Positions 5,031 through 22,130 of a stretch of DNA of 26,924 nucleotides are shown in pieces; position 1 is the first letter of the stretch, and every line of letters starts with the position of its first letter. Origin of the DNA: a virus. The notes under the pieces were generated by a model that searched no databases, was not told the DNA's origin, and saw nothing but the letters and a program-made list of their open reading frames with translations. The stretch is from positions 1 through 26,924 of the IMG/VR virus record IMGVR_UViG_3300000117_000189. The stretch is one strand, 5' to 3'. The position numbers were made by a program, and so were the translations under genes.

Positions 5031-5100
5031 CACGATATAAATAGTCGAGGAATAATAAAACCACAATAACAAAAGAAAAAATGAAAATTAAATCATTCAT
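5023..5100 (-). CDS. Hidden 25-residue single-span membrane peptide
   Basis: A frame starting MNDLIFIFSFVIVVLL and ending DYLYRDG, with an uninterrupted hydrophobic core of about 16 residues and charged ends. Its ATG overlaps the stop of the upstream membrane protein as ATGA, and its end overlaps the next holin-like ATG by 8 bases. Both junctions point to translational coupling. It could be a pinholin, a holin regulator or an unusual lysis peptide. Too short for homology; the packing and composition are the evidence. Confidence 0.55.
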   Translation of the reverse strand: MNDLIFIFSFVIVVLLFLDYLYRDG

Positions 5101-5561
5101 CTTTTGCCCGATGGTGTGAAGTAAAAACCTGTGACCATTGGAGCAAGAACGACAACAAAATAATAAGCTAACGCTCCCGATGTGATTTCCAAAGTGGTTT
5201 GCTCTTTTGGAAAAGTGACGAGTCCAAATAAGATTTCGATGTTTCCTTCTCCTCCGATGTTTTGAGGGGCAATGATTGTGGCCTCGGGAAACAGGATTGA
5301 AAGAATGATGACGGCGGAGAGTGTTGACATGATGATGACAGCCAGGAGCCTCCTAGTAACACGAGTGAAAAGACCGCCCTCACCTGAATTGATTTGTTTC
5401 TGAAATAAAAGTGCTTGTTCATTGTTTCTACATTCCCTTGCGAGTTCCAATTCGTATTTGTTTTGCCTTGCATCTGTGATCGCTCCAAAGACTCCTTTCA
5501 AAACTGAACCAAGCATTGCAGAACCACCGCTTGTCAAAAACATTGTCAGGATCTCAATCAT
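5097..5561 (-). CDS. Multi-span membrane protein, likely holin or lysis-associated
   Basis: The 154-residue protein has a short hydrophobic N-terminus (about 1-28, Gly/Ala-rich), a charged cytoplasmic-looking helix (30-60), a strong membrane span in LLAVIIMSTLSAVIILSILF (71-90) and another in ALAYYFVVVLAPMVTGFYF (130-148). Proteins of this plan follow the tail genes of many environmental phages and are usually called holin-like. The gene overlaps both neighbours by ATGA. The membrane location is solid; the lysis role is inferred. Confidence 0.65.
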   Translation of the reverse strand: MIEILTMFLTSGGSAMLGSVLKGVFGAITDARQNKYELELARECRNNEQALLFQKQINSGEGGLFTRVTRRLLAVIIMSTLSAVIILSILFPEATIIAPQNIGGEGNIEILFGLVTFPKEQTTLEITSGALAYYFVVVLAPMVTGFYFTPSGKR

Positions 5562-5680
5562 TGCATGAAAACAAAGACAAGTTCGAGCATCTTAAACATG
5601 GTGTCAATAATTAGTTCACGCTCTAAAAAGAAAAAGAAAAGAGCAATGATCCAACGCCATTCATTTTGGCAATGTTGCAT
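5558..5680 (-). CDS. Hidden 40-residue hydrophobic peptide
   Basis: A frame starting MQHCQNEWRW, then IIALFFFFLE, an amphipathic middle (RELIIDTMFK) and a second hydrophobic end (MLELVFVFMQ). It overlaps the preceding gene by 20 bases and the next gene by ATGA, exactly filling what would otherwise be a 99-base gap. Tryptophan/arginine at the membrane edge and a run of four phenylalanines suggest membrane insertion. Function unknown; possibly an antiholin or membrane-disrupting peptide of the lysis cassette. Confidence 0.55.
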   Translation of the reverse strand: MQHCQNEWRWIIALFFFFLERELIIDTMFKMLELVFVFMQ

Positions 5681-6020
5681 CCATTCTTTGTCGAACTAAA
5701 TCAAGCTCTTTTTCCAAATACTTGAGCCGCTCAAATTGTTGATGGTCTGAAGTGATTGGTTTATCTTGCATTTCTACCAAATGGTCCAGGTCTGCTTTTG
5801 CTTGTTCTGCAAATTTCTCAAGATGCATCATTCGTGCGGATAAGTCTCCGAGCAATGTTGATTCATGCTGAACAGAAGTCATTTGCATTTCCATGGAACT
5901 CATTCTGTTAGTGAGTTCACTCCAACACCAAATTGCGGAACCTGTAATTGCAATTACTTTCGCAACAAAAGTAAGGTTCGCTTTAACTTGCGTATTTTCG
6001 CCCAACTCGGGCACGCTCAT
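5661..6020 (-). CDS. Membrane-anchored coiled-coil protein (spanin- or holin-like)
   Basis: The 119-residue protein has one N-terminal membrane span (about 16-35, LTFVAKVIAITGSAIWCW) followed by a long polar helical region (40-115) with coiled-coil spacing. This topology, a short inner-membrane anchor with a long helix, fits an i-spanin or a phage lysis accessory. No partner lipoprotein gene was found. It opens the group of five consecutive membrane-protein genes at the end of the late operon. The role is inferred from topology and position. Confidence 0.55.
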   Translation of the reverse strand: MSVPELGENTQVKANLTFVAKVIAITGSAIWCWSELTNRMSSMEMQMTSVQHESTLLGDLSARMMHLEKFAEQAKADLDHLVEMQDKPITSDHQQFERLKYLEKELDLVRQRMDATLPK

Positions 6021-6396: not shown

Positions 6397-8466
6397 TTAT
6401 ATTGTTGCCGAAACATTTGTTGGTCGGTTTGGTCTTGTTTCGCAACTTGACCCGCTCGTCAATTGAGTTGCAAAAGATTCATTGAAAGGATTCAAATTTG
6501 CTGAACCTGTCCCGCTCGGCGTTATATCTTTAAGGATTCCTGCTTCCGCTAAAAGTTCAGCTTGTGAGTAGTTTTGAGGGTTTAAGGTATTCATGTAAAG
6601 CGGATGAGTTGAAGCAAACGACCAACGAATGCCGTCTTGAATATTTGCGTATTCGTTCCCATTTGAGTCAAGTCTATAAGATTTAAAAAGATAGATTTCG
6701 TCAGTCGTTAAAGTGCAGTCGGAGTTTAAAATTTTCTTGTACCAATAACCGAGATAAAGTGCAAACTCTCCTTGTTCTTGATTGCTAAAAACATAATTTA
6801 AAGAGCTGTCTTGGATTGCTGTATCCAAGGTTCTTTGTTGGTAAGCTCCATTTAACGAAGTCACATCTGTAATTCCTGAAACTTGAAGGTCCGCTTCCTC
6901 TACTGCTCTTGCTTGTAAATCAAGATCATATTGGTACAGGTCTACAAATTCCCACTTGATTCCGCGATCAATTTCGTACGCCCATCCCCATGAACCTGTA
7001 TTTTGATTTGCTCCTGTGGTATATGGTGTGACTCTAGGGAATGCAGGGTCTTCGACTCTTATAGGATAGCTGTTAGGCGAAATGCCTATTGTTCGCAGAA
7101 TCGATCCTGCAGGATAGAATTTCGGGTCGTCACCTCGTAAATAATATTGTTGTAATAAAATAATTGTTTCACCATATCCATTGAACTGCGTGACATCAAA
7201 AAACGGATCTAGGTTATATGAAACCTCGACCGCATTCACAAGGCTCGGAGGCAATGCAAATTTTTCCGCAGTAACTAAGCTTGGAACATCGGGCAGGCTG
7301 ACATTTGTCGGCAAGAATTTAATTGACCCTAAAGTGCCTGGAATTGTCGTTTCGTAAAAGCTGAAATTTTCTTCAGTAAAGCCAATACCTGAAGTCTGAT
7401 AAATGCTTTGATTTGTGTTCCTGAAATATAAGTTCCACGAAATTGTTGTTGCTGTTACAGCAGAAGCATAGATACGCTCAATTCCTCCTGTTGCGTGAGT
7501 CTGACAATTTGAACCTGAACATTCATAGACAGGGGCATTATTCTCAAGGGTCGATCCATCCCACACAAATGTTTTGTCATTCAATACTGCAAAATCTTGC
7601 GTCCCTTCAAATACATAAGCCTGCGGGACATGAACTTGAGTTCCGTTCCATGTCCAGGGCAAAAGATAATCGCTGAAAATTGTTCCTGTTGGTGCATTTG
7701 GGGAGGATGTTATTGTCAAATGTGATGGAAGATTTGACAGCCTTCCAACGCTCAAATTGCTTGGCTCAAGTGGATTAGTTAAAGCACTTAAATTTGAAGG
7801 GCTTGCAGGAGAATTATCAACAGAAATATTTGAAGGGTTGGCAGGAATTGTGCCTTGCAGTTCAACAACAACGATTCCGCTTGGTGCTGTTGGTCTTGCT
7901 AGTGCCGTCAAGTTTGTTGGTGCTTCAGGACTTCCACCCAAAAGAATATTTGAAGGGCTCTGTGGCGTTGTTTCAGCATCAACAAAACTTGGAGCGGTTG
8001 GAGCTAATACTTCTGAAACATTGACAAGACTCGGCTCGAGTGGATCGAGCAAAGTTATTTCCTGGAAAGTGCTGAATCGATTTCGTAAATTAATTGACCC
8101 TTGAAAAATTGTTTTTGTTGTTCCGTTTTTTACATCTTGAATCTCCACAATTGCTTTTCGTTCCTCGACTCCATCAAGGAAGGTTTGCAATTCTGATGTT
8201 TGGAAATCAACAAGAGAAGAAAAGCTCAAGCCGTTATAATTTAAAGTCTGCAATGAAATCAAATTTGTTGTGCCATCCGTAATCAAAAATTGTATCGAGT
8301 GCTGTTCTCGGTCTGCTAAAAGCTCGCCAAGTTCATTGACCAAGTGAATATCAAGCTTTACAACATCGCCAAAAAATACAGGATCAATCGCTTTTTGCCC
8401 AGTAGTTAAATAACCATTACGAAGGCTTGATGATGGATTTGCATCTTTGTCAATGTAAAGTTTCAT
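6397..8466 (-). CDS. Large tail fibre/receptor-binding protein with 12-residue repeats
   Basis: The 689-residue protein has a beta-rich N-terminal domain (1-135) resembling its upstream neighbour and the baseplate-attachment domain of BppU-type proteins. A Pro-Ser-Asn repeat stalk follows (about 141-268), then a large C-terminal region (270-680) with WTWNGTQVHVPQAYVF and a few scattered Cys (for example ECSGSNCQ, 316-322). It ends in RPNRPTNVSATI, like the first strand of a fibronectin type III domain. Location after the tape measure and domain plan suggest the host-recognition fibre. Its start overlaps the upstream stop as ATGA. The exact receptor is unknown. Confidence 0.65.
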   Translation of the reverse strand: MKLYIDKDANPSSSLRNGYLTTGQKAIDPVFFGDVVKLDIHLVNELGELLADREQHSIQFLITDGTTNLISLQTLNYNGLSFSSLVDFQTSELQTFLDGVEERKAIVEIQDVKNGTTKTIFQGSINLRNRFSTFQEITLLDPLEPSLVNVSEVLAPTAPSFVDAETTPQSPSNILLGGSPEAPTNLTALARPTAPSGIVVVELQGTIPANPSNISVDNSPASPSNLSALTNPLEPSNLSVGRLSNLPSHLTITSSPNAPTGTIFSDYLLPWTWNGTQVHVPQAYVFEGTQDFAVLNDKTFVWDGSTLENNAPVYECSGSNCQTHATGGIERIYASAVTATTISWNLYFRNTNQSIYQTSGIGFTEENFSFYETTIPGTLGSIKFLPTNVSLPDVPSLVTAEKFALPPSLVNAVEVSYNLDPFFDVTQFNGYGETIILLQQYYLRGDDPKFYPAGSILRTIGISPNSYPIRVEDPAFPRVTPYTTGANQNTGSWGWAYEIDRGIKWEFVDLYQYDLDLQARAVEEADLQVSGITDVTSLNGAYQQRTLDTAIQDSSLNYVFSNQEQGEFALYLGYWYKKILNSDCTLTTDEIYLFKSYRLDSNGNEYANIQDGIRWSFASTHPLYMNTLNPQNYSQAELLAEAGILKDITPSGTGSANLNPFNESFATQLTSGSSCETRPNRPTNVSATI
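7663..8046 (-). repeat. Tandem 12-residue PxxPSN repeats in the fibre protein
   Basis: About nine imperfect units, for example PQSPSNILLGGS, PEAPTNLTALAR and PASPSNLSALTN. They form a stalk-like stretch between the attachment domain and the C-terminal region, and share the consensus of the repeats in the neck fusion gene at 16261-16734. Confidence 0.75.
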
Positions 8467-8909
8467 ATTACTTGTGCGGTCACGGCGGTTGGATAACTTG
8501 GTAAGAGTGGACTCGAAATGTAACTATCAAGCAACCGAATTGGTGCTTGAAGCAAGACTTCACTTTCCAAAGATGCCTCAAATGAAACCTCAAGGGCTAA
8601 ATTTCCGCTTGCTTGCATGACTTCATTTCTAGCCAAATCCAAAACAAAAGAATATGTTCCGTTATCTTCTGCTCTCTGTTGTGCCTGTGTAAATAATTGC
8701 CTTGTTGATATGATGCCCACACTCATTTTGATGCGTGCATCGGGTCGGCTTAAAATTGCAGGCTTCGTTCCTTCTTTATTATAAAGGGTTACATCAATAT
8801 TGACTTGATCGCCTTTTACAAATTCAAAGTTGCTCGGGATCCTTCTTTGAGAGTTTGCTTCAATCAATGAATCTGTTGCGATTGCGTCCGTGTTGATATT
8901 AATGTTCAT
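8463..8909 (-). CDS. Baseplate/fibre attachment protein (BppU-like), paralogue of next gene
   Basis: 148 residues, beta-rich. The segment FVKGDQVNIDVTLYNKEGTK (30-49) lines up with FFGDVVKLDIHLVNELGE in the downstream fibre protein, and the LLQAPIRLLDSY segment matches its IFQGSINLRNRF. The two N-terminal domains therefore look like duplicates. It probably sits at the tail tip as a structural adaptor that holds the fibre. It overlaps the fibre gene by ATGA. The BppU comparison is from pattern only. Confidence 0.55.
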   Translation of the reverse strand: MNININTDAIATDSLIEANSQRRIPSNFEFVKGDQVNIDVTLYNKEGTKPAILSRPDARIKMSVGIISTRQLFTQAQQRAEDNGTYSFVLDLARNEVMQASGNLALEVSFEASLESEVLLQAPIRLLDSYISSPLLPSYPTAVTAQVI

Positions 8910-9082: not shown

Positions 9083-9864
9083 GAGTTTGTGACAATATAA
9101 AGGGCAAGTGATGCTGTTCCTGCAAAACTTGTGTCGGCAAAAACATATCCTGCAATAATTCCACCTAAGTCGGTGTCTCCGCATTCGCATTCATTTGCAT
9201 TTCCTCCGCTTTGCAGTCTGCCACCTAATTGCCTTCTCAATAATATTCTAGCGGTTGAACCAAGACCGCCATCTGTTCCGCTATTTGTTACAGCACCATT
9301 TGTATCAAACTCGCTCCATACTCTTCTCGTGGATGCATAAAACTCGCCACAATTTTCTATGGCATATCCAATCCTTGAAGTTTCTCCAATGAATCTGTTG
9401 AAGTAAATATAATCTTGGCAATAAGATCTTTTACAAGGTTTTCCTGCTCGAGCTATTCCATCGTTTGAAGGATCCCAAAAAGTGTCGTTTTCATGTTTGA
9501 AATCCGAATAAGTTTCTTCAGAATGTAAATAGTATTTTGTGTTTGGATATGGGTCTGCTTGACTTCCTACCCAATTTGAAGCCGTTGCAATAACTTGAGA
9601 AAAAGTATGAGTTCCGAAGTTTGCAGACCCTAGCCACCAGGTGCTGACTTGAATGCTTGAAGGAACGCTGACTTGACAGCATGGCAAATTATAAGAAACA
9701 GGCAACGGCTGTCCTGTGTCACAATCAATGACTTGGTTGTCAGGTCTTGGACAGGAACCATTATCGAAACAAGGTTCTTGTTCGCACTCGCATGGATCTC
9801 CCTCGCAATTGTCGCAACAATTACCCCGCTCTTGATCGACTCTCCTTGTGAAAAATGTTGTCAT
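9079..9864 (-). CDS. Cysteine-rich distal tail protein (hypothetical)
   Basis: A 261-residue protein with 15 cysteines. Ten lie in residues 16-63, in tight patterns such as CCDNC, CECEQEPC and a CC pair at 62-63; the rest are at 144, 149, 172, 226 and 228. The remainder is aromatic- and Gly/Thr-rich like a tail-tip or fibre protein. So many cysteines in a phage virion protein suggest a disulfide knot or a metal-binding head. Its start shares TAATG with the upstream stop. Family not recognised. Confidence 0.6.
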   Translation of the reverse strand: MTTFFTRRVDQERGNCCDNCEGDPCECEQEPCFDNGSCPRPDNQVIDCDTGQPLPVSYNLPCCQVSVPSSIQVSTWWLGSANFGTHTFSQVIATASNWVGSQADPYPNTKYYLHSEETYSDFKHENDTFWDPSNDGIARAGKPCKRSYCQDYIYFNRFIGETSRIGYAIENCGEFYASTRRVWSEFDTNGAVTNSGTDGGLGSTARILLRRQLGGRLQSGGNANECECGDTDLGGIIAGYVFADTSFAGTASLALYIVTNS

Positions 9865-10217
9865 TAGATTAAAAGCACTTCGATAAATTCGTTATTGCCG
9901 TCTGCTAAATCTTCTTCGTCAGGAATTATGAGAAATTCCCTTTCCTTGATGATTCCTTCCTCACAAAGCTCGATCTTTTTTTTCATCAAAGTTTGTGTTG
10001 GTATTTCCGCAATTTTATCGTCAAATGATTCTTGTTTTTTTTCTTCTGAAGGTTGAGGAATCTTTATTGTAATTGTTTGAGTTCCTCGTACAATTTCCAA
10101 GTTGTCTCCATATTCAATCTCTAAGCTTTGCAATATATTGATTGCATCAATAAGCTCATTTGCTTTTTCTGTATGAAGCAAAGTCGGAGATCCACCTTTG
10201 ACAACTTTGGCAATCAT
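9864..10217 (-). CDS. Small tail-tip-associated hypothetical protein
   Basis: 117 residues. The N-terminus HTEKANELIDAINILQSLEI (16-35) is a helix of the type found at the start of small trimeric tail proteins. A beta segment follows (NLEIVRGTQTITIKIPQP), then a long acidic tail. It probably belongs to the tail-tip assembly given its neighbours. Overlaps the upstream gene by ATGA and abuts the next as TAATG. No specific family named. Confidence 0.6.
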   Translation of the reverse strand: MIAKVVKGGSPTLLHTEKANELIDAINILQSLEIEYGDNLEIVRGTQTITIKIPQPSEEKKQESFDDKIAEIPTQTLMKKKIELCEEGIIKEREFLIIPDEEDLADGNNEFIEVLLI

Positions 10218-14154: not shown

Positions 14155-14754
14155 TCAATTCTTTTGACTTCGTTTCTTTAATTCTTTCATCAACAATTCT
14201 GTTTCCATTGCTTGAATTGCTGTCATTCTGTTTAACTTTTCTCCATTTTGTAAAGCGTATCTTTCATGAATTGCTGTGTTAAGCTGAAAGATTTGCCGAA
14301 TGGGAATGTTTAAAATTTCTTCAATCCTCCATCCATATTCTTTTGCGTATAAATCAATCTGTTGAGTAAGGAATAAGCTGTGCTGTGGTGCATTCCCTTC
14401 TCCACCCTCTAATGTATCTGCATCAACGAAAGTCGATTCCAGGTAGGTCCTTAAGTCTGCAATTGCACTTTGAAATTTTACTTGAATTACTTTCTTGCAA
14501 AAAACATCTCGTTTTTTTGCATCTGTGGAAAAGTCCGATGAAAGAACCCAAAGAAAAACAGCAAGATCAGTTTGCGTGAAATTGCTGTTTTGCATGATTG
14601 GAGACTCTAACCCTTCAAGGATGAAATAATCCTTCAAGGTCATTTGTCTTATTTCAATTCCTCCAATTGTGGAGTTTAAATTTAACCAAGCTTCGAAGCG
14701 TTGGTTTTCTGCTTGCTCCTTCTTACGAAGGAACTCTTTTGGTAAGTCGATCAA
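14155..14754 (-). CDS. Tail assembly chaperone-like protein
   Basis: 199 residues, between the tail-tube candidate and the tape measure, where lambda G/GT lies. Segments IEIRQMTLKDYFILEGLESP (33-52), LAVFLWVLS and YGWRIEEILNIPIRQIFQLN are typical of helical phage tail chaperones that coat the tape measure during assembly. The start is TTG at 14754, overlapping the upstream TGA, because no suitable ATG exists before residue 38. No convincing programmed frameshift product was found: the -1 frame ends after about a dozen codons. Confidence 0.65.
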   Translation of the reverse strand: MIDLPKEFLRKKEQAENQRFEAWLNLNSTIGGIEIRQMTLKDYFILEGLESPIMQNSNFTQTDLAVFLWVLSSDFSTDAKKRDVFCKKVIQVKFQSAIADLRTYLESTFVDADTLEGGEGNAPQHSLFLTQQIDLYAKEYGWRIEEILNIPIRQIFQLNTAIHERYALQNGEKLNRMTAIQAMETELLMKELKKRSQKN

Positions 14755-15089
14755 TCGTTCAGTTTCTCACGAGCGGAAAAGCTTTGAGTCGCAAAACTTC
14801 CATTGCTTCGGGAAACTGAAGTTTCAGTCACTAAATAGTTTACACCTTCAAGTGCGAACTCTTGCCCTTGTGTCAAGTTTGGGTTTGATGAATCAACAAC
14901 GGCGGTTCCGCTTAACTCTTTTGGTCTTCCAACGAAGACTTGAGAAATGACTTGCCCGTCCGATCCTTCAAGTTCAATAACATTTGTTCCCTCGCTTACG
15001 CTAAAGTCTTGTAGCAAATAGTCGTTTCCGTCAATTGCGATTACTGCACCGCCAAAGGTGTATTGTGTTCCGTCTCTTGTAACTGCCAT
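14751..15089 (-). CDS. Small major tail (tube) protein candidate
   Basis: 112 residues, nearly all beta-strand-like, with alternating hydrophobic residues and FSVSEGTNVIELEGSDGQ (29-46). It lies between the tail terminator-like gene and the chaperone gene, exactly where lambda has its tube protein gene V. It is short for a tube protein but has the right composition. The assignment rests on synteny and fold-like pattern; a small structural accessory is the alternative. Confidence 0.5.
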   Translation of the reverse strand: MAVTRDGTQYTFGGAVIAIDGNDYLLQDFSVSEGTNVIELEGSDGQVISQVFVGRPKELSGTAVVDSSNPNLTQGQEFALEGVNYLVTETSVSRSNGSFATQSFSAREKLND

Positions 15090-15100
15090 AATTTTTAAAG

Positions 15101-15538
15101 TTAAGTTTTTGTGTGATCTAGTTTGAAAGTAATTTGAAACATCAAGGTTGTTTGGTCAAGATTGTTTTCTTCGTTTTGAATTGTTGATGATGCTTGAGGC
15201 TGAATGTCAAAGATTTCGTATTGGTTCGAAGTAAAGCCATTGACTCCGTTAATCATGTTTGCTCGCACCTTTCCGATTCGTTCATGATGCAGTAAATCAT
15301 TTTCTCGATAAGTCTGCACTTGTATCATTACTTGCCCTTCATGCAGGTCATATTCAAATTGATTATTCAAAACCTGTCTGCCTGTGTCAAGGATTCCTCC
15401 GTATTCAAAAGCAACTTGAATATTATTTTCTGCAAGTTCTACCATTCCAAAAGTCGGGTAAGCTTTTAAACCTTTAGAAACTAAAAAGGCTGAAACTTCA
15501 CCTTCTATATTTTTTTCGAATTGAAAGTTTTTGCTCAT
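15101..15538 (-). CDS. Tail terminator / completion-like protein
   Basis: 145 residues starting MSKNFQFEKNIEGEVSAFLV, with a helix-strand pattern, HEGQVMIQVQTYRENDLLHH in the middle and an acidic C-terminal third. Position after the FII-like neck gene and before the tail tube matches lambda Z/U, which cap and join the tail. This start is chosen over an upstream ATG at 15598 because it makes an ATGA overlap with the neck gene stop. Confidence 0.55.
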   Translation of the reverse strand: MSKNFQFEKNIEGEVSAFLVSKGLKAYPTFGMVELAENNIQVAFEYGGILDTGRQVLNNQFEYDLHEGQVMIQVQTYRENDLLHHERIGKVRANMINGVNGFTSNQYEIFDIQPQASSTIQNEENNLDQTTLMFQITFKLDHTKT

Positions 15539-17133
15539 ATTGTTGGCAATAATGTTTTGTAAGGATGCGTTACGGGAAGGTTTCCATCGATGCCCCACTT
15601 GTGAGCGAGGTAGCCTTCGATTTTTTGTCGGTCATTGCTATCTGTAAAAGCGATGACTTCTGCAAATTTGCCCACAAAGTTCTGAGTTTCACCTTCAGAA
15701 TGGCCCAGGTTGAAGGTATTAAGATTATCCACTCCTGTATTTCCTGAGTCAGTTAGTGTTCCATTCAGAAAAGCCGCTCCACTAGAACCATTTATTTTCG
15801 CAACAAGTAAGTGAAATGATCCTTTAGTTGTAGAACCAAAACCTACGAAGGTATTACCACCGCCTGATGTTTTACCAAAAATCTCAACATTTTCTCCGCC
15901 TGTTAAGGGTCTCTTTCTGATTGCACATCTATCTAATGAGCTAGTTGTTCCAGCCCATAAGAAATATTGATCTGTAAATACTGCATCGAGTTCTACTAGA
16001 AATGCCAAGAAAATTGGGTTCGATATGTTGTGCGAAAAGTTGCTATTTTCTAAGCAGTCATCATTAAAGTCTAGAACATTTAATGAATTTTGCGTTATTG
16101 TGTTGGTAGTCGGCCCTGTTTCCCCTGTGACGGGAGCTAGGTTTAAACCATTTCCGCTCTTGTCACTCCATTGAGTAACCTCCGACCCGCTCGAGGTAAT
16201 GGTTGAGCTATCGCTTGCATCCCACCATCCTTCGATTGCCGTGCTGTTTTCAGGACTCCAGGAAGCACCAACAGAAATGTTGCTTGGTGTGATTGGATTT
16301 CGTGCAAGCGTAAGATTGCCAGGGGCAAGTGGATTTTTATTAGTCGTAAGATTGCCAGGGGCAATTGGATTTTTATCAAGCGTAAGATTGCTTGGAGCAA
16401 GCGGTATGGAATCAAGCACAAGATTGCTTGGAGCAAGTGGCGTGGTTTCAAGGATAAGATTGCTTGGAATAAGCGGGCTCTTGTCAAGTACGAGATTGCT
16501 TGGAGCAAGTGGTGTGGTTTCAAGGACCACATTACTCGGAATAAGCGGTGTGGTATCAAGTGAAATGTTGCTTGGAGCAAGTGGAATCGATGATGCCGAA
16601 ACTAATAAATTGCTCGGAGCAAGTGGGTTTGAAATTGTAAAAAATTGTGATGGTATTCTTGGGCTTCGATCTAATAAAATGCCACTTGGTTCAATTGGGC
16701 TTCGATCAATTGTAATATTACTTGGCGGGTTTGATCGTCTGCCTGTTCCGATAAAAATAATAGTTGGAGCCAAGGGCTGTTGATTGTCTCCAATTTGTGC
16801 AGGCGTTGGGTCGATGTATCTAAAGCCTGCAATCTTTTCGACATTTAGCTCGATTGCATCTTCTCTTTTTTCTACTGAATCAATACGAAATCCTTGGTCA
16901 CGAATTATAATGGTTTCATTGACTTTCGGATCGGATCCTAAAAGCGAATATTCCGTCAAAGGAATTACAAGGTTTAAGCTTTGCTCTTCGTAATATCCTG
17001 AAAGCTCAAGGCTCTTGTTTGCTTCTGATTGTCCAACACTTGCAGGAATGGTTTCCCCCCTAAACAAAACATCCTCACCGAAGCTTTGAACTTCGGCAAG
17101 GAATGTTTGTGCGAGTGCGTCTCTCCACTCCAT
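15535..17133 (-). CDS. FII-like neck protein fused to repeats and a LamG-like domain
   Basis: 532 residues in three parts. Residues 1-105 resemble lambda FII-type head-tail joining proteins (ETIIIRDQGFRIDSVEKRED, 73-92). Residues 134-291 are thirteen 12-residue units of the PLAPSNLVLDKS type. Residues 292-532 form a concanavalin/LamG-like domain, with EGWWDASDSSTIT, VTQWSDKSGNG and a C-terminal KIEGYLAHKWGI motif common in surface proteins of marine bacteria. FII alone is about 117 residues. The virion neck therefore probably carries long adhesive whiskers (inference). A hairpin lies just upstream of the ATG. Confidence 0.7.
   Translation of the reverse strand: MEWRDALAQTFLAEVQSFGEDVLFRGETIPASVGQSEANKSLELSGYYEEQSLNLVIPLTEYSLLGSDPKVNETIIIRDQGFRIDSVEKREDAIELNVEKIAGFRYIDPTPAQIGDNQQPLAPTIIFIGTGRRSNPPSNITIDRSPIEPSGILLDRSPRIPSQFFTISNPLAPSNLLVSASSIPLAPSNISLDTTPLIPSNVVLETTPLAPSNLVLDKSPLIPSNLILETTPLAPSNLVLDSIPLAPSNLTLDKNPIAPGNLTTNKNPLAPGNLTLARNPITPSNISVGASWSPENSTAIEGWWDASDSSTITSSGSEVTQWSDKSGNGLNLAPVTGETGPTTNTITQNSLNVLDFNDDCLENSNFSHNISNPIFLAFLVELDAVFTDQYFLWAGTTSSLDRCAIRKRPLTGGENVEIFGKTSGGGNTFVGFGSTTKGSFHLLVAKINGSSGAAFLNGTLTDSGNTGVDNLNTFNLGHSEGETQNFVGKFAEVIAFTDSNDRQKIEGYLAHKWGIDGNLPVTHPYKTLLPTI
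16261..16734 (-). repeat. Thirteen tandem 36-bp (12-residue) repeats in the neck gene
   Basis: Consensus P-x-x-P-S-N-[LI]-x-[LV]-[DE]-[TKS]-[TSN]. The best-preserved central units are PLAPSNLVLDKS, PLIPSNLILETT and PLAPSNLTLDKN. Central units are nearly identical at DNA level and outer units have drifted, the usual sign of unequal exchange. A similar block occurs in the fibre gene at 7663-8046. Confidence 0.85.
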
Positions 17134-17140
17134 CAGCTTT

Positions 17141-17154
17141 GAGGCTTACGCCTC
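17141..17154 (-). other. 5-bp hairpin with GTAA tetraloop before the neck gene
   Basis: On the transcript, GAGGC-GTAA-GCCTC lies 7 bases before the neck ATG. The loop is of GNRA type and contains the stop codon of the preceding gene. The left arm begins with GGAGG, a Shine-Dalgarno core that the stem would hide. It could tie neck translation to termination on the gene before. Structure seen, role inferred. Confidence 0.4.
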
Positions 17155-18168
17155 CGCTTTTAGGTCGAGTGCGTCAATTCCGTATTTTACCCTTACAGAA
17201 TAAGATTGAGAAAGTGCTGTTCCTTGATCAGCTGAAACAGGATTTCCTTTAGAAAGTGTGAAGTTCTCGGGCTTGTCACTCAAGCTATTGATTTGAGCTT
17301 CTGCCTTGTGAATCACACCCCATAAGAATTTCCTGCCGTCATTTTGCTCGCTTGCGTCAAGATCGTGCAAGTCAGTTCTTTTGATTAAGATATAATCAGA
17401 GTCAGCATCAAGGTTTCCTTGAATTGCATCCGTTCCATTTATCTCAGTTTCTACCAAAGTAGAAACCAAGTTTGCAGAAGCATTGGAAATGCTTAAAGAA
17501 ACAAGTCCTTGAATGTGTCCGCTTGCTCCATTGAAAGCAGTTTGAACTTGGGACTGCGTGTAGGAAGCAATACCAACCGCAGGAACTTCAGGAACTTCGT
17601 CAGTTCCACCTGCCAAGTCTGTTGACCCTGTGGTAGCTAATGCACCTGCAAGATTGGTAAAAGTAATTTCAATGTTGTCCTTAACCGAAGCCCCTGCAAG
17701 AGCGTACAAGTTTGCAATGTCTGCTTGAGTCTTGGTTCCAATTACATCGTCAAGATCAATTGTTAAAACTCCATTTGCAAAGCTCATGTTGTCGGCAACT
17801 TGACTTTCATTAATCAAAACAGAAAAGCCTGTATCCCCTGCAACTTCTGCCTTGTAGGTGATTCCATCGATTGCAACTTCGTCAAAAGTTGCAGGAACCG
17901 CAGGAGTTGAAGCAATTGATTGAACTGCCATTGTGATTGCATCAGCGTTGGAACTAAATTCAATTCCTGATGCGTTTGGATCTTCCACAATTTCAATGCT
18001 TGGCGGACTTGCTAAAAGTCCTCCCGCATTTGCGGTGAAGGTCAATCCGTCATGCGTTACTGAGCCAAAGGTTTCAACCTCTGAAACAACTTCTTGGAGG
18101 TCACCGCTTCCATTCGTAGAAATAAATTTCGCAGAAGGAAAGATGCCTGTTGTGTTTATGGTAGCCAT
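17146..18168 (-). CDS. Virion protein next to the capsid gene (decoration or head protein)
   Basis: 340 residues, Thr/Ser/Ala/Asn-rich and beta-strand-like, directly downstream of the major capsid gene with one base between the two. Segments FDEVAIDGITYKAEVAGDTG (about 95-114) and an earlier VTHDGLTFTANAGG look like two versions of the same strand pair, suggesting an internal duplication. The C-terminus SYSVRVKYGIDALDLKAEA is well ordered. Lambda has D/FI/FII around this spot, so a capsid decoration, portal-adaptor or abundant head protein is plausible. No family named. Confidence 0.55.
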   Translation of the reverse strand: MATINTTGIFPSAKFISTNGSGDLQEVVSEVETFGSVTHDGLTFTANAGGLLASPPSIEIVEDPNASGIEFSSNADAITMAVQSIASTPAVPATFDEVAIDGITYKAEVAGDTGFSVLINESQVADNMSFANGVLTIDLDDVIGTKTQADIANLYALAGASVKDNIEITFTNLAGALATTGSTDLAGGTDEVPEVPAVGIASYTQSQVQTAFNGASGHIQGLVSLSISNASANLVSTLVETEINGTDAIQGNLDADSDYILIKRTDLHDLDASEQNDGRKFLWGVIHKAEAQINSLSDKPENFTLSKGNPVSADQGTALSQSYSVRVKYGIDALDLKAEA

Positions 18169-18169
18169 T

Positions 18170-19054
18170 TTAGTTTTGAGCTAAAACTGCAACTTGTGTT
18201 CCCTTGGCAACTGCTACGCCATACATCGTAGTAAAGGCTCCGTAGTGAATGCCTTTGCTTGCATCATAGAATCTACGATAAGCACATTGGAGACCAAGTC
18301 CATCAATGGTGAAAGGAGTAAACTCTTCGAGAGTAGCAGACCCGCTTGTGTCGGGCATCCTGTTGACAACAACTATGGCATCACTTGAGCAAGCGATTGA
18401 ATGCGGGTCTCCTGTCGCAAGAGTACCATGTGCATTTGTTACTGAAGTCTTCATGCCAAAGAGTTGATTGAACCTTCCGCTTTCAAGAACAGAATTGCCA
18501 AAGGTCTCAATCGAGTTTGGTAGAAGATTGTTGCTTGCTTGAGCCCCGAGAAGAAGGTGGCGATTCATGCTCGCACCATTGTCATCAAGTGTCCCGTGCA
18601 ATCCTTGAATGTCACTTATGGCAACCGAAGTATTGGCAACCGAAGTAACATTTCCTGCAGGAATATCTCCTGCGGTAACTGCTGAATCAACGGAAGTGTA
18701 AAGCAACTTTATTAAGTAGCGACCAAACTCGTTGGCGTTTTGGCTTGCGTAGTTTTGCAAGCTCAAAGGTGACTTATTCAAGTGATTGTCATTGAGATGG
18801 AAAGGTTTGATTCTTTCTTCAACGCTAACCGAAACGGTTGTGACATCAGAATCTGAGTCACCTGTGTAACCTGTTGCAGATGCATAATCTCTTGCGGTGT
18901 CGTCAGTATTGACAACAGGAACTTTGACGGTTGCGGCTCGACCTACAACATCATTGGAAATGTCAAGGGTAAGCTCGTTGAGTGGGGCAAGCATATTTTG
19001 CAACACGCTAACCGCTGTGGAAATTGTAATTTCGGATGATATATTATTTGCCAT
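18170..19054 (-). CDS. Major capsid protein
   Basis: 294 residues. The length, the N-terminus ANNISSEITISTAVSVLQNM, the VGRAATVKVPVV strand and the EFGRYLIKLLYTSVDSAV helix fit HK97-fold coat proteins of small siphoviruses. So does the C-terminal run of Gly/Tyr-rich strands (GIHYGAFTTMYGVAVAKG). It follows the protease-scaffold gene, the standard order. No cleaved N-terminal scaffold domain is visible, consistent with scaffold supplied by the upstream gene. The call rests on position plus sequence pattern. Confidence 0.8.
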   Translation of the reverse strand: MANNISSEITISTAVSVLQNMLAPLNELTLDISNDVVGRAATVKVPVVNTDDTARDYASATGYTGDSDSDVTTVSVSVEERIKPFHLNDNHLNKSPLSLQNYASQNANEFGRYLIKLLYTSVDSAVTAGDIPAGNVTSVANTSVAISDIQGLHGTLDDNGASMNRHLLLGAQASNNLLPNSIETFGNSVLESGRFNQLFGMKTSVTNAHGTLATGDPHSIACSSDAIVVVNRMPDTSGSATLEEFTPFTIDGLGLQCAYRRFYDASKGIHYGAFTTMYGVAVAKGTQVAVLAQN

Positions 19055-20064: not shown

Positions 20065-21879
20065 TTATTTGCCTTCGTCTATTTGTGCAAGCTTTTTGGT
20101 AGCCCATTCGACTCCTGAAGTGCCACCCCATGCGTCCCACATTATTCCGCCACACCCTTCGGAATAAGGAACATCTTTATGTTGTTGATGTCTTTTAAAA
20201 GATGCCATTCGTGCAATTGTATCCCTCGAGATTTTTTCTCTCCTGGCAAGTTGTCCTGCTCTTGTCCATCCAACTTGAGTTCCGCAAGTGCTTCCGTTTT
20301 CTTCCTTCCACTTGATTGCTTTTTTTGCGTTGTTGGATGCTGACTCAGGATAATCGTTGTAAGTTTCGGCAAGCTCCAAAGATTCAAGTTCTTCTTGTGA
20401 TTCTTCGGCTTGCCTTTCGTCTTCAGACTTTGGAGGCAAACCCACTAAGGCACGAACTTCGTCTTGGGTCATGTTTTCCAAAATCTTTGTTGCAACGAGT
20501 GGAGAAAGTTGACCCATGGCATCTGCAACAGGATCCACTTTAACGCTTGGGTTTGTGTTTTCTTTCACAAGGTTTTGATCTTCTCCAATCTTTACAATTT
20601 CTTCTTTAAAGTCTAAGCCATTATTTGCAAAAATTGTTGATTTACTTGCAAGCCCTTTCTCTATCAATAAAGCATCCGTTTGGGCATCCTGCCTCCTGTC
20701 AAGTGTTGGTGACCTGGTCCATTGAAACGAAACTTCTTCCCTGTCTTCATTTGGTAAAATTTCTTCGTTGCTTTCAAATTTATAAGTTCTCCACCTTGCA
20801 AGCCTTCGCAAAAATGTATCTTCAAGCATTTCCCGAATCTGTTTAAATCTATGATTTGTCACTTCCCTTGTTGCTTTGGAAGAACTGAAGGAAGCGTTTG
20901 ACCAACCCACCAAATTTTCCATAGTGATTCCAACGCTTGAGCAAGCAAAAGAAATTAGTTGACGCATGAATGCATCAACTCCGTCAATTGCTCCACCTTG
21001 AATAGTCTGCACGCTTTCGCCATTTTCTAAAAGAAGCAATGACCCCGAATAAAGCTTTTTATAACTTGAACGCATTTGATCGCCCTCATACTCGTTGCCA
21101 TCCCATCTTGCCGAATAAGGTTGGTTGCTTGTTATAAATCCTGTTAGGGCTGAACTGACCTTCACCTTGGCCGTGTAAGCTGTTTGCACTTCGTGAATGT
21201 CCTGCAAGGTCTTGGTTGCAGACGCAAGCATTGGAGTTCCCCTTTGCTGTCCGATTCTCAAATTATTTGAAATGTGAATGATGTTGCTTGCAGGAACATA
21301 ACTTGCGTTTGACTCGTCAACCATGCCGTCTTTCATCTGACAAATTCGATATGCTTGAGCTGTGCCAAATCGATTGGAAACTATTCCTGCCGATTCATTT
21401 TCTCTCATCTGTGTTTTGTCCATCGAGCTTGCCACCCGCTCACTAGGTATTAATTGAATCGATCCTGTTTTTGTAAGCAAAATAAAAACTTCTCCTGCAA
21501 GTAAAAGGTCTGAAATGATATGTTGCAAAACCTTCTGCATTCCGAAGCCTGTGACCTCGCAGTTTTTGAAATACTTTTTAAAAAGATTATTTCTTGCTTC
21601 GTCGTAAATTTCTACACCTGTTGTGCTTTGAAAAGAACATTGTCCAAGATTGGAAACAAATACTTGTACGATACTCCGTGCAATTGGATTATTTCTTTCA
21701 AGGTCCCTTAATGTACTTAACATTTCGAGGCGATTGCCTCGTTGAAGAACTTTGTCCTCACTCTCTAAAATTGAAGACCTGTCAAGTGCGTCATTCTGCT
21801 TTCGCCAACTTGGTCGGCTTGCTGAATAGCCAAATTGAATTTCGTTTCCTCTGCTGTCTAGTAATGTTTGCGATCGCAT
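20065..21879 (-). CDS. Lambda-type portal protein with extra C-terminal domain
   Basis: 604 residues. The main part (about 1-480) matches lambda-family portals, the dodecameric DNA gate at the head vertex: LRDLERNNPIARSIVQVFVS (57-76), an IQLIPSERV segment, HISNNLRIGQQRGTPML, and NHRFKQIREMLEDTFLRRLA. Residues 513-604 form a separate compact domain, AKKAIKWKEENG, VGWTRAGQLARREKISRDTI and IMWDAWGGTSGVEWA, rich in Lys/Arg/Trp. Lambda gpB is 533 residues and lacks it. The start has the best Shine-Dalgarno in the window (AAGGAGG, 21893-21887). Confidence 0.9.
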   Translation of the reverse strand: MRSQTLLDSRGNEIQFGYSASRPSWRKQNDALDRSSILESEDKVLQRGNRLEMLSTLRDLERNNPIARSIVQVFVSNLGQCSFQSTTGVEIYDEARNNLFKKYFKNCEVTGFGMQKVLQHIISDLLLAGEVFILLTKTGSIQLIPSERVASSMDKTQMRENESAGIVSNRFGTAQAYRICQMKDGMVDESNASYVPASNIIHISNNLRIGQQRGTPMLASATKTLQDIHEVQTAYTAKVKVSSALTGFITSNQPYSARWDGNEYEGDQMRSSYKKLYSGSLLLLENGESVQTIQGGAIDGVDAFMRQLISFACSSVGITMENLVGWSNASFSSSKATREVTNHRFKQIREMLEDTFLRRLARWRTYKFESNEEILPNEDREEVSFQWTRSPTLDRRQDAQTDALLIEKGLASKSTIFANNGLDFKEEIVKIGEDQNLVKENTNPSVKVDPVADAMGQLSPLVATKILENMTQDEVRALVGLPPKSEDERQAEESQEELESLELAETYNDYPESASNNAKKAIKWKEENGSTCGTQVGWTRAGQLARREKISRDTIARMASFKRHQQHKDVPYSEGCGGIMWDAWGGTSGVEWATKKLAQIDEGK

Positions 21880-22130
21880 ACAATTGCCTCCTTAAATGGA
21901 AAGTTGTTTTCGATTCCTTGAATCCTCGAATTGATTATTTCATATTCCTTTGTGGCAACTTCAAGTTCCTGCCTGATTTCTTCTTGTGATCTAAAGGCTT
22001 TGCTTTGTCCTGCCGAACTGAAACTTGTCATGCCCAAGCTTTCCAAGCGTTCAAGTGTTTTCTCTAGTCGCTCAATCCTTTTTTGCAGGAAGTCAAGCTG
22101 TTGTTCGTCTGATCTGTATTTTGTACTCAT
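21858..22130 (-). CDS. gpW-like head-tail joining protein
   Basis: 90 residues. A charged N-terminal helix is followed by LGMTSFSSAGQSKAFRSQEE (32-51) and a second helix, as in gpW-family proteins. These are small head-completion proteins that bind under the portal. The order terminase, W, portal is that of lambda. It overlaps the portal gene by 22 bases and the upstream gene by ATGA. The final residues (NFPFKEAIVCDRKHY) extend beyond the usual W length. Confidence 0.7.
   Translation of the reverse strand: MSTKYRSDEQQLDFLQKRIERLEKTLERLESLGMTSFSSAGQSKAFRSQEEIRQELEVATKEYEIINSRIQGIENNFPFKEAIVCDRKHY

Follow-up and report, generated by a model that had tools for sequence, protein, structure and literature searches.

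Gene organization of the neck locus

The window analyzed here is the whole of a linear IMG/VR virus record of 26,924 bp. Its structural genes follow the order lambda-family portal, capsid protein, 340-aa protein, fusion gene, U-like gene, tube-like gene and tape measure, and those bearing on the neck are the following:

21858..22130, minus strand: 90-aa candidate gpW-like (adaptor) protein, suggested by its position adjoining the portal gene and its coiled-coil-like sequence
20065..21879, minus strand: lambda-family portal protein (Pfam Phage_portal_2, E 2e-39)
18170..19054, minus strand: major capsid protein (phrog_283, E 8e-6)
17146..18168, minus strand: 340-aa protein between the capsid and fusion genes
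15535..17133, minus strand: stopper-stalk-LamG fusion gene, 532 aa from the ATG, from frame and translation
15101..15538, minus strand: putative tail-terminator (U-like) gene, assigned by gene order, not by sequence; its ATG overlaps the fusion stop
14751..15089, minus strand: tail tube protein candidate, from gene order; highly conserved across the lineage

The same succession of head-tail joining, terminator U and tube genes is annotated in the Roseobacter phages CRP-811, CRP-821 and CRP-406. These CRP phages (L018/L027/L028) share the neck gene order with the window, and CRP-811 also the portal family, and they have no stalk. Profile comparison of the U-like protein with the Roseobacter phage U proteins was not significant. 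The tube protein retrieved matches from the same lineage only, and searches of bacterial genomes with the major capsid protein and the terminase gave no match.

Two further features of the neighboring genes were observed. The C-terminal part of the portal protein, about 110 aa, extends past the lambda-family portal domain (phrog_2859-type, 'SASNNAKKAIKWKEENG...GGIMWDAWGG'). The 340-aa protein has a counterpart of 229-230 aa in the related contigs L009, L010, L023 and L024 and no match in L019 and L020, where the stopper is bare; a role as an accessory of the head or of the whisker is possible.

A single intact frame encodes the fusion protein

The preliminary description had reported one uninterrupted 532-residue frame at 15535-17133 without naming the strand. 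This frame was confirmed and lies on the minus strand (17133..15535); on the plus strand, many stop codons interrupt the corresponding frame. At 15538, the TGA stop and the start codon of the following gene overlap in the sequence ATGA, and GC content is even along the gene, at about 42-43%. An assembly or frameshift artefact is unlikely, because fused orthologues occur in independent contigs (see below). The protein divides as follows:

16819..17133, minus strand: stopper / FII-type head-tail joining domain, residues 1-105, from the AlphaFold2 fold and orthologues at the locus
16738..16818, minus strand: linker, residues 106-132, of low confidence in the model
16264..16737, minus strand: stalk of thirteen 12-aa repeats (x-P-L-A-P-S-N-L-x-L-D-x), residues 133-290, from lag-12 identity and a tandem-repeat finder
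15538..16263, minus strand: LamG / concanavalin-A-like tip, residues 291-532, from phrog_10356 and fold match
15578..16231, minus strand: exchanged tip module, DNA 86-88% identical over about 650 bp to contigs L003-L006

The N-terminal domain has a predicted stopper fold

The N-terminal domain was modeled with AlphaFold2 from four sequences (pLDDT 70, moderate; pTM 0.61), giving a predicted small beta-barrel with an N-terminal helix, as in stoppers. Foldseek against the PDB placed the stopper from the marine siphophage R4C (8gtf_M, E 3.7e-3) and lambda gpFII (8k37_M, E 4.6e-3) first, followed by 2pp6 (Gifsy-2), XkdH and the Chi neck protein, and a BFVD fold search gave the same picture. With VIA-align, 8gtf_M scored Z 8.4 (80 aligned, 3.2 A) and 8k37_M Z 7.7 (85 aligned, 4.5 A), and the range 7.7-8.4 took in 2pp6, the R4C stopper, the SaPI1, T4 and XM1 neck proteins, XkdH, SPP1 gp16 and lambda gpFII; a Z of about 8 is near background for this program and weak if taken alone. 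The support for the stopper fold is nevertheless strong, since the top 13 rows of the fold lists are nearly all phage neck or head-tail joining proteins and come from different phages. A BppU match was absent from these lists, but a BppU-like domain may nonetheless be present.

Sequence searches were far less informative. The best family match was phrog_2551 'minor tail protein', at a weak E of only 0.0029; none of the Pfam neck families was matched; hhalign of the domain family against the known head-tail joining/Hc1 family of Roseobacter phages was not significant; and a single-sequence search of IMG/VR with the domain alone found no close relatives. Because sequence profiles do not align significantly, the FII assignment rests on fold and gene position, which together support residues 1-105 as a stopper (FII-type) domain. 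The FII-like character proposed earlier for the first 105 residues is thus borne out by the predicted fold (residues 1-109, with stopper/FII proteins as top PDB matches) and by gene order, and the check suggested in the preliminary description, comparison with FII and neck folds, returned a neck match.

Stopper-like barrels also occur at the other end of the particle, which raises the question of whether residues 1-105 serve in a baseplate or as a tail-side adaptor, with whiskers on the tail instead of the neck. The same small beta-barrel is found in tail proteins (3gs9, the monocin tip 9j1k_L and the 80alpha baseplate 6v8i), and both phrog_2551 and phrog_12452 carry the label 'tail'. Yet the best fold matches are stoppers and FII, the terminator and tube genes directly follow the gene, with the tip genes far away, and a free-standing orthologue of 106 aa is the sole gene between the capsid and U-like genes in L019 and L020. 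We therefore regard a tail location as improbable and continue with the neck.

The stalk consists of thirteen repeats

Residues 133-290 contain exactly 13 units of 12 residues, the number counted in the preliminary description, with one spacing of 14 residues and the consensus [NST]-P-L-[AI]-P-S-N-[LI]-x-L-[DE]-x. Identity at lag 12 was found at 72 positions, against a maximum of 31 among 2000 shuffles, and a 36-bp period at 16305-16584 was detected independently by the tandem-repeat finder. The stalk fell below pLDDT 50 in the monomer model, and its sequence had no match in the PDB. Relatives of these repeats are present in a second protein of the window:

6397..8466, minus strand: 689-aa tail-side protein (tblastn, 40% identity, E 3e-17, to stalk residues 163-285)

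The tip is LamG-like

The C-terminal part (residues 291-532; about 240 aa) matches phrog_10356 'virion structural protein' with an E of 5e-23. We call it LamG-like only, because Laminin_G_3 (PF13385) scored 19.3 bits, under the curated Pfam cut-off of 27.6. The predicted fold is a jelly-roll beta-sandwich that aligns with many concanavalin-A/LamG members at Z 13-15.6 over about 190-215 residues, the best match being the tailspike of cyanophage Pan3, with AbnA domain 4 also among the matches. The motifs by which a LamG-like end had been recognized beforehand (GWWDAS, QWSDKSGNG, EGYLAHKWG) are all present, in keeping with this fold. Matches to clostridial neurotoxin binding domains reflect the shared concanavalin-A-like fold only, and a toxin role was rejected. 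A LamG-domain gene of Pseudanabaena phage Pam2 (ON014754.1 57607-58305) is annotated as 'botulinum neurotoxin type A', most likely a misannotation at the level of the fold.

The fusion recurs with different tips

A search with the full-length fusion retrieved only LamG relatives; orthologues of the fusion were reached via capsid protein relatives in other IMG/VR contigs. The search of virome contigs proposed in the preliminary description thereby yielded the N-terminal domain and stalk at the same locus in seven other viral contigs, in five distinct versions:

L009: N-domain, stalk of similar units, LamG; 492 aa
L010/L011, a near-identical pair: N-domain, short stalk, SASA carbohydrate esterase, LamG; 678 aa
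L012: N-domain, stalk and the start of SASA, cut by the contig end
L022: N-domain, stalk, SASA, LamG; 715 aa
L023/L024: N-domain, stalk, LamG; 444 aa

The SASA esterase was identified by Pfam in two relatives (E 5e-21 and 2.5e-21), with the GQSN and WYQGESN motifs intact. N-domain orthologues at the locus are 26-52% identical, and some are free-standing proteins of 106 aa. As bare versions occur in L019 and L020, the domain is an independent protein and its extension optional. The U-like proteins of these two contigs (174 and 246 aa) are extended at the C-terminus, and the extension contains two units of the stalk's P-x-x-P-[SGT]-N type. Judged from sequence, stalk-type repeats can thus sit on either of two neighboring ring proteins, since the fusion carries them on the stopper and L019/L020 on the U-like protein.

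Other genes at these loci deserve mention. A metallophosphoesterase-like gene (244 aa, 'FATDLHGD...') stands between the U-like and tube genes of three contigs, an odd site for an enzyme gene:

L019: 6241-6975
L020: 8579-9313
L022: 12518-13252

In Synechococcus phage S-CBS1 (L017), a 'major tropism determinant' and a 'fibre protein' are annotated among the neck genes (7610-8671 and 9485-10093), a hint that adhesins are encoded at the neck locus there.

Tips are exchanged between unrelated phages

The tip DNA of the window is 86-88% identical to that of L003-L006, podovirus-like contigs unrelated to the window whose LamG proteins carry other N-termini; besides the tip, the window and these contigs have no match at the DNA level. 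In the tip tree the window clusters with L003-L006 (clade support 100/99), and the tip of L009, from the window's own lineage, has only 35% protein identity to it. Because such similar tip DNA occurs in contigs sharing no other DNA match, we read the alignments as horizontal exchange of tips between phages, in the manner of receptor-binding modules, and they suggest trade between siphovirus-like and podovirus-like phages. Two small genes (5097-5561 and 5661-6020, minus strand) are also common to the window and the same podovirus-like contigs (43% with L003/L004, 70% with L004), hinting at a shared host or gene pool.

A tip resembling that of other phages, on a gene whose remainder has no such match, would also be expected if the extension were an assembly chimaera joining two genes or phages. 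We give this explanation very little credence: the identical domain order is found in several other independent contigs, the junction falls inside an in-frame repeat array, the ATGA overlap with the next gene is intact, and the GC content does not change along the gene.

A proposed stopper-borne neck whisker

Taken together, the fused frame, its folds, the gene order and the recurrence of the fusion make it probable that the protein is a subunit of the stopper (head-closure) ring in the neck of a lambda-like siphovirus, bearing a C-terminal adhesion whisker with swappable glycan-binding or glycan-editing tips. The preliminary description, which had gone as far as a ring of stalked, sugar-binding whiskers at the neck, was right in its observations and largely right in their interpretation. 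Beyond it, the sequences compared here add conservation across the lineage, tips that vary and include an esterase, stalk-type repeats on the terminator-like protein in two relatives, and the horizontal exchange of tips.

By analogy with solved stoppers, which are hexamers between adaptor and terminator (PMC10276861; PMC10721106), we infer six copies of the protein between the adaptor and the tail-terminator ring. Since the C-terminal loop of lambda gpFII touches the adjacent gpU subunit (PMC10721106), the extension would plausibly emerge at the stopper-terminator seam. From each copy, the Pro/Asn/Leu-rich stalk of thirteen repeats would project sideways and hold out the LamG-like domain, so that six stalks, singly or as trimers, would surround the neck with the tips at their ends. 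The tip most likely binds host or environmental glycans, and the contact would be of low affinity and multivalent, complementing the receptor-binding proteins at the tail tip. The SASA-type esterase inserted before LamG in relatives may deacetylate surface sugars. On this model, the viruses of this small lineage, which are uncultured tailed viruses infecting bacteria, probably grip their host or environment from the neck as well as from the tail tip.

The stopper ring subunit is essential in model phages. A bolder proposal, which we hold as possible but tentative, is that the stopper ring doubles as an adhesion organelle, with six whiskers covalently joined to the DNA gatekeeper, tips (LamG, or SASA esterase plus LamG) swapped between unrelated phages and the whisker able to hop to the adjacent terminator ring. 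If this were true, contact at the neck could couple mechanically to the gatekeeper.

To our knowledge, the neck whiskers and collars described so far are distinct proteins, and how they are anchored and what they do is unclear. The anchor here is an identifiable ring subunit, which makes the stoichiometry and geometry of the whisker predictable and testable. This suggests that phage receptor-binding modules should be sought in neck-ring proteins too, where labels of 'head-tail joining' or 'hypothetical' conceal them.

Comparison with known systems

Residues 1-105 resemble lambda gpFII, the R4C stopper and SPP1 gp16 in size, in predicted fold (N-terminal helix and beta-barrel) and in the position of the gene before terminator U. 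Known stoppers end at about 100-117 residues and have neither stalk nor adhesin, whereas the fusion has both, and sequence similarity to them is not detectable. Neck whiskers as such are already known; the new element is their direct fusion to the stopper, of which we found no description in the open-access papers searched.

The tip has homologues elsewhere. The LamG protein CPKG_00053 of the cultured cyanophage KBS-S-2A (phrog_10356 'virion structural protein') is 32-33% identical to it but is encoded by a free-standing gene of 253 aa, unfused to a stopper. That gene immediately precedes those for head closure Hc1, neck and terminator, so the window's lineage is not alone in encoding a LamG protein at the neck locus. 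The closest solved fold, the tailspike of cyanopodophage Pan3 (PDB 9vyh; Z 15.6, 3.9 A, 211 aligned), has 10% identity to the tip, and there the domain is part of a tailspike.

The lactococcal neck passage structure (NPS) of TP901-1 and the 936 phages likewise combines a conserved neck anchor and a long stalk with tips that bind carbohydrate and vary between phages; among these tips, one class resembles the CBM of carbohydrate esterases (PMC6669499, PMC10747895). The fusion family shares with it the conserved anchor and the interchangeable carbohydrate-active tips. NPS, however, is a protein separate from the stopper; its N-terminal collar domain is BppU-like, its stalk is helical and trimeric, and it is modeled as six trimers. 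In the fusion the anchor is the stopper-like domain itself, in one frame with a stalk of 12-aa repeats and the tip. The neck fibres of Anabaena phage A-1(L) (gp82-gp81-gp80) also project from the neck and end in a carbohydrate-binding module; they differ from the proposed whiskers in that a 15-mer ring bears five fibres, each trimeric and built of several proteins that separate genes encode (PMC10966104).

Both systems bear on whether the whisker contacts the host at all. In A-1(L), the CBM of the neck fibre failed to bind the host (PMC10966104), and a CBM at the neck is therefore not necessarily an adhesin for host cells; NPS is non-essential in TP901-1 (PMC6669499) and binds the host weakly in isolation (PMC6669499, PMC10747895); and two sister phages of the window have the stopper without LamG. 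The whisker could accordingly be real and yet shield or stabilize the neck, or tether particles to environmental polysaccharide or mucus, like fibritin-like or non-binding neck fibres. We consider this rather unlikely, as the trading of tips with unrelated phages, and the occurrence of a SASA esterase at the same position, look like selection on contact with surface glycans. With NPS as the functional parallel and A-1(L) as the warning, an auxiliary, multivalent glycan contact is by analogy the most likely role of the stopper-borne whisker.
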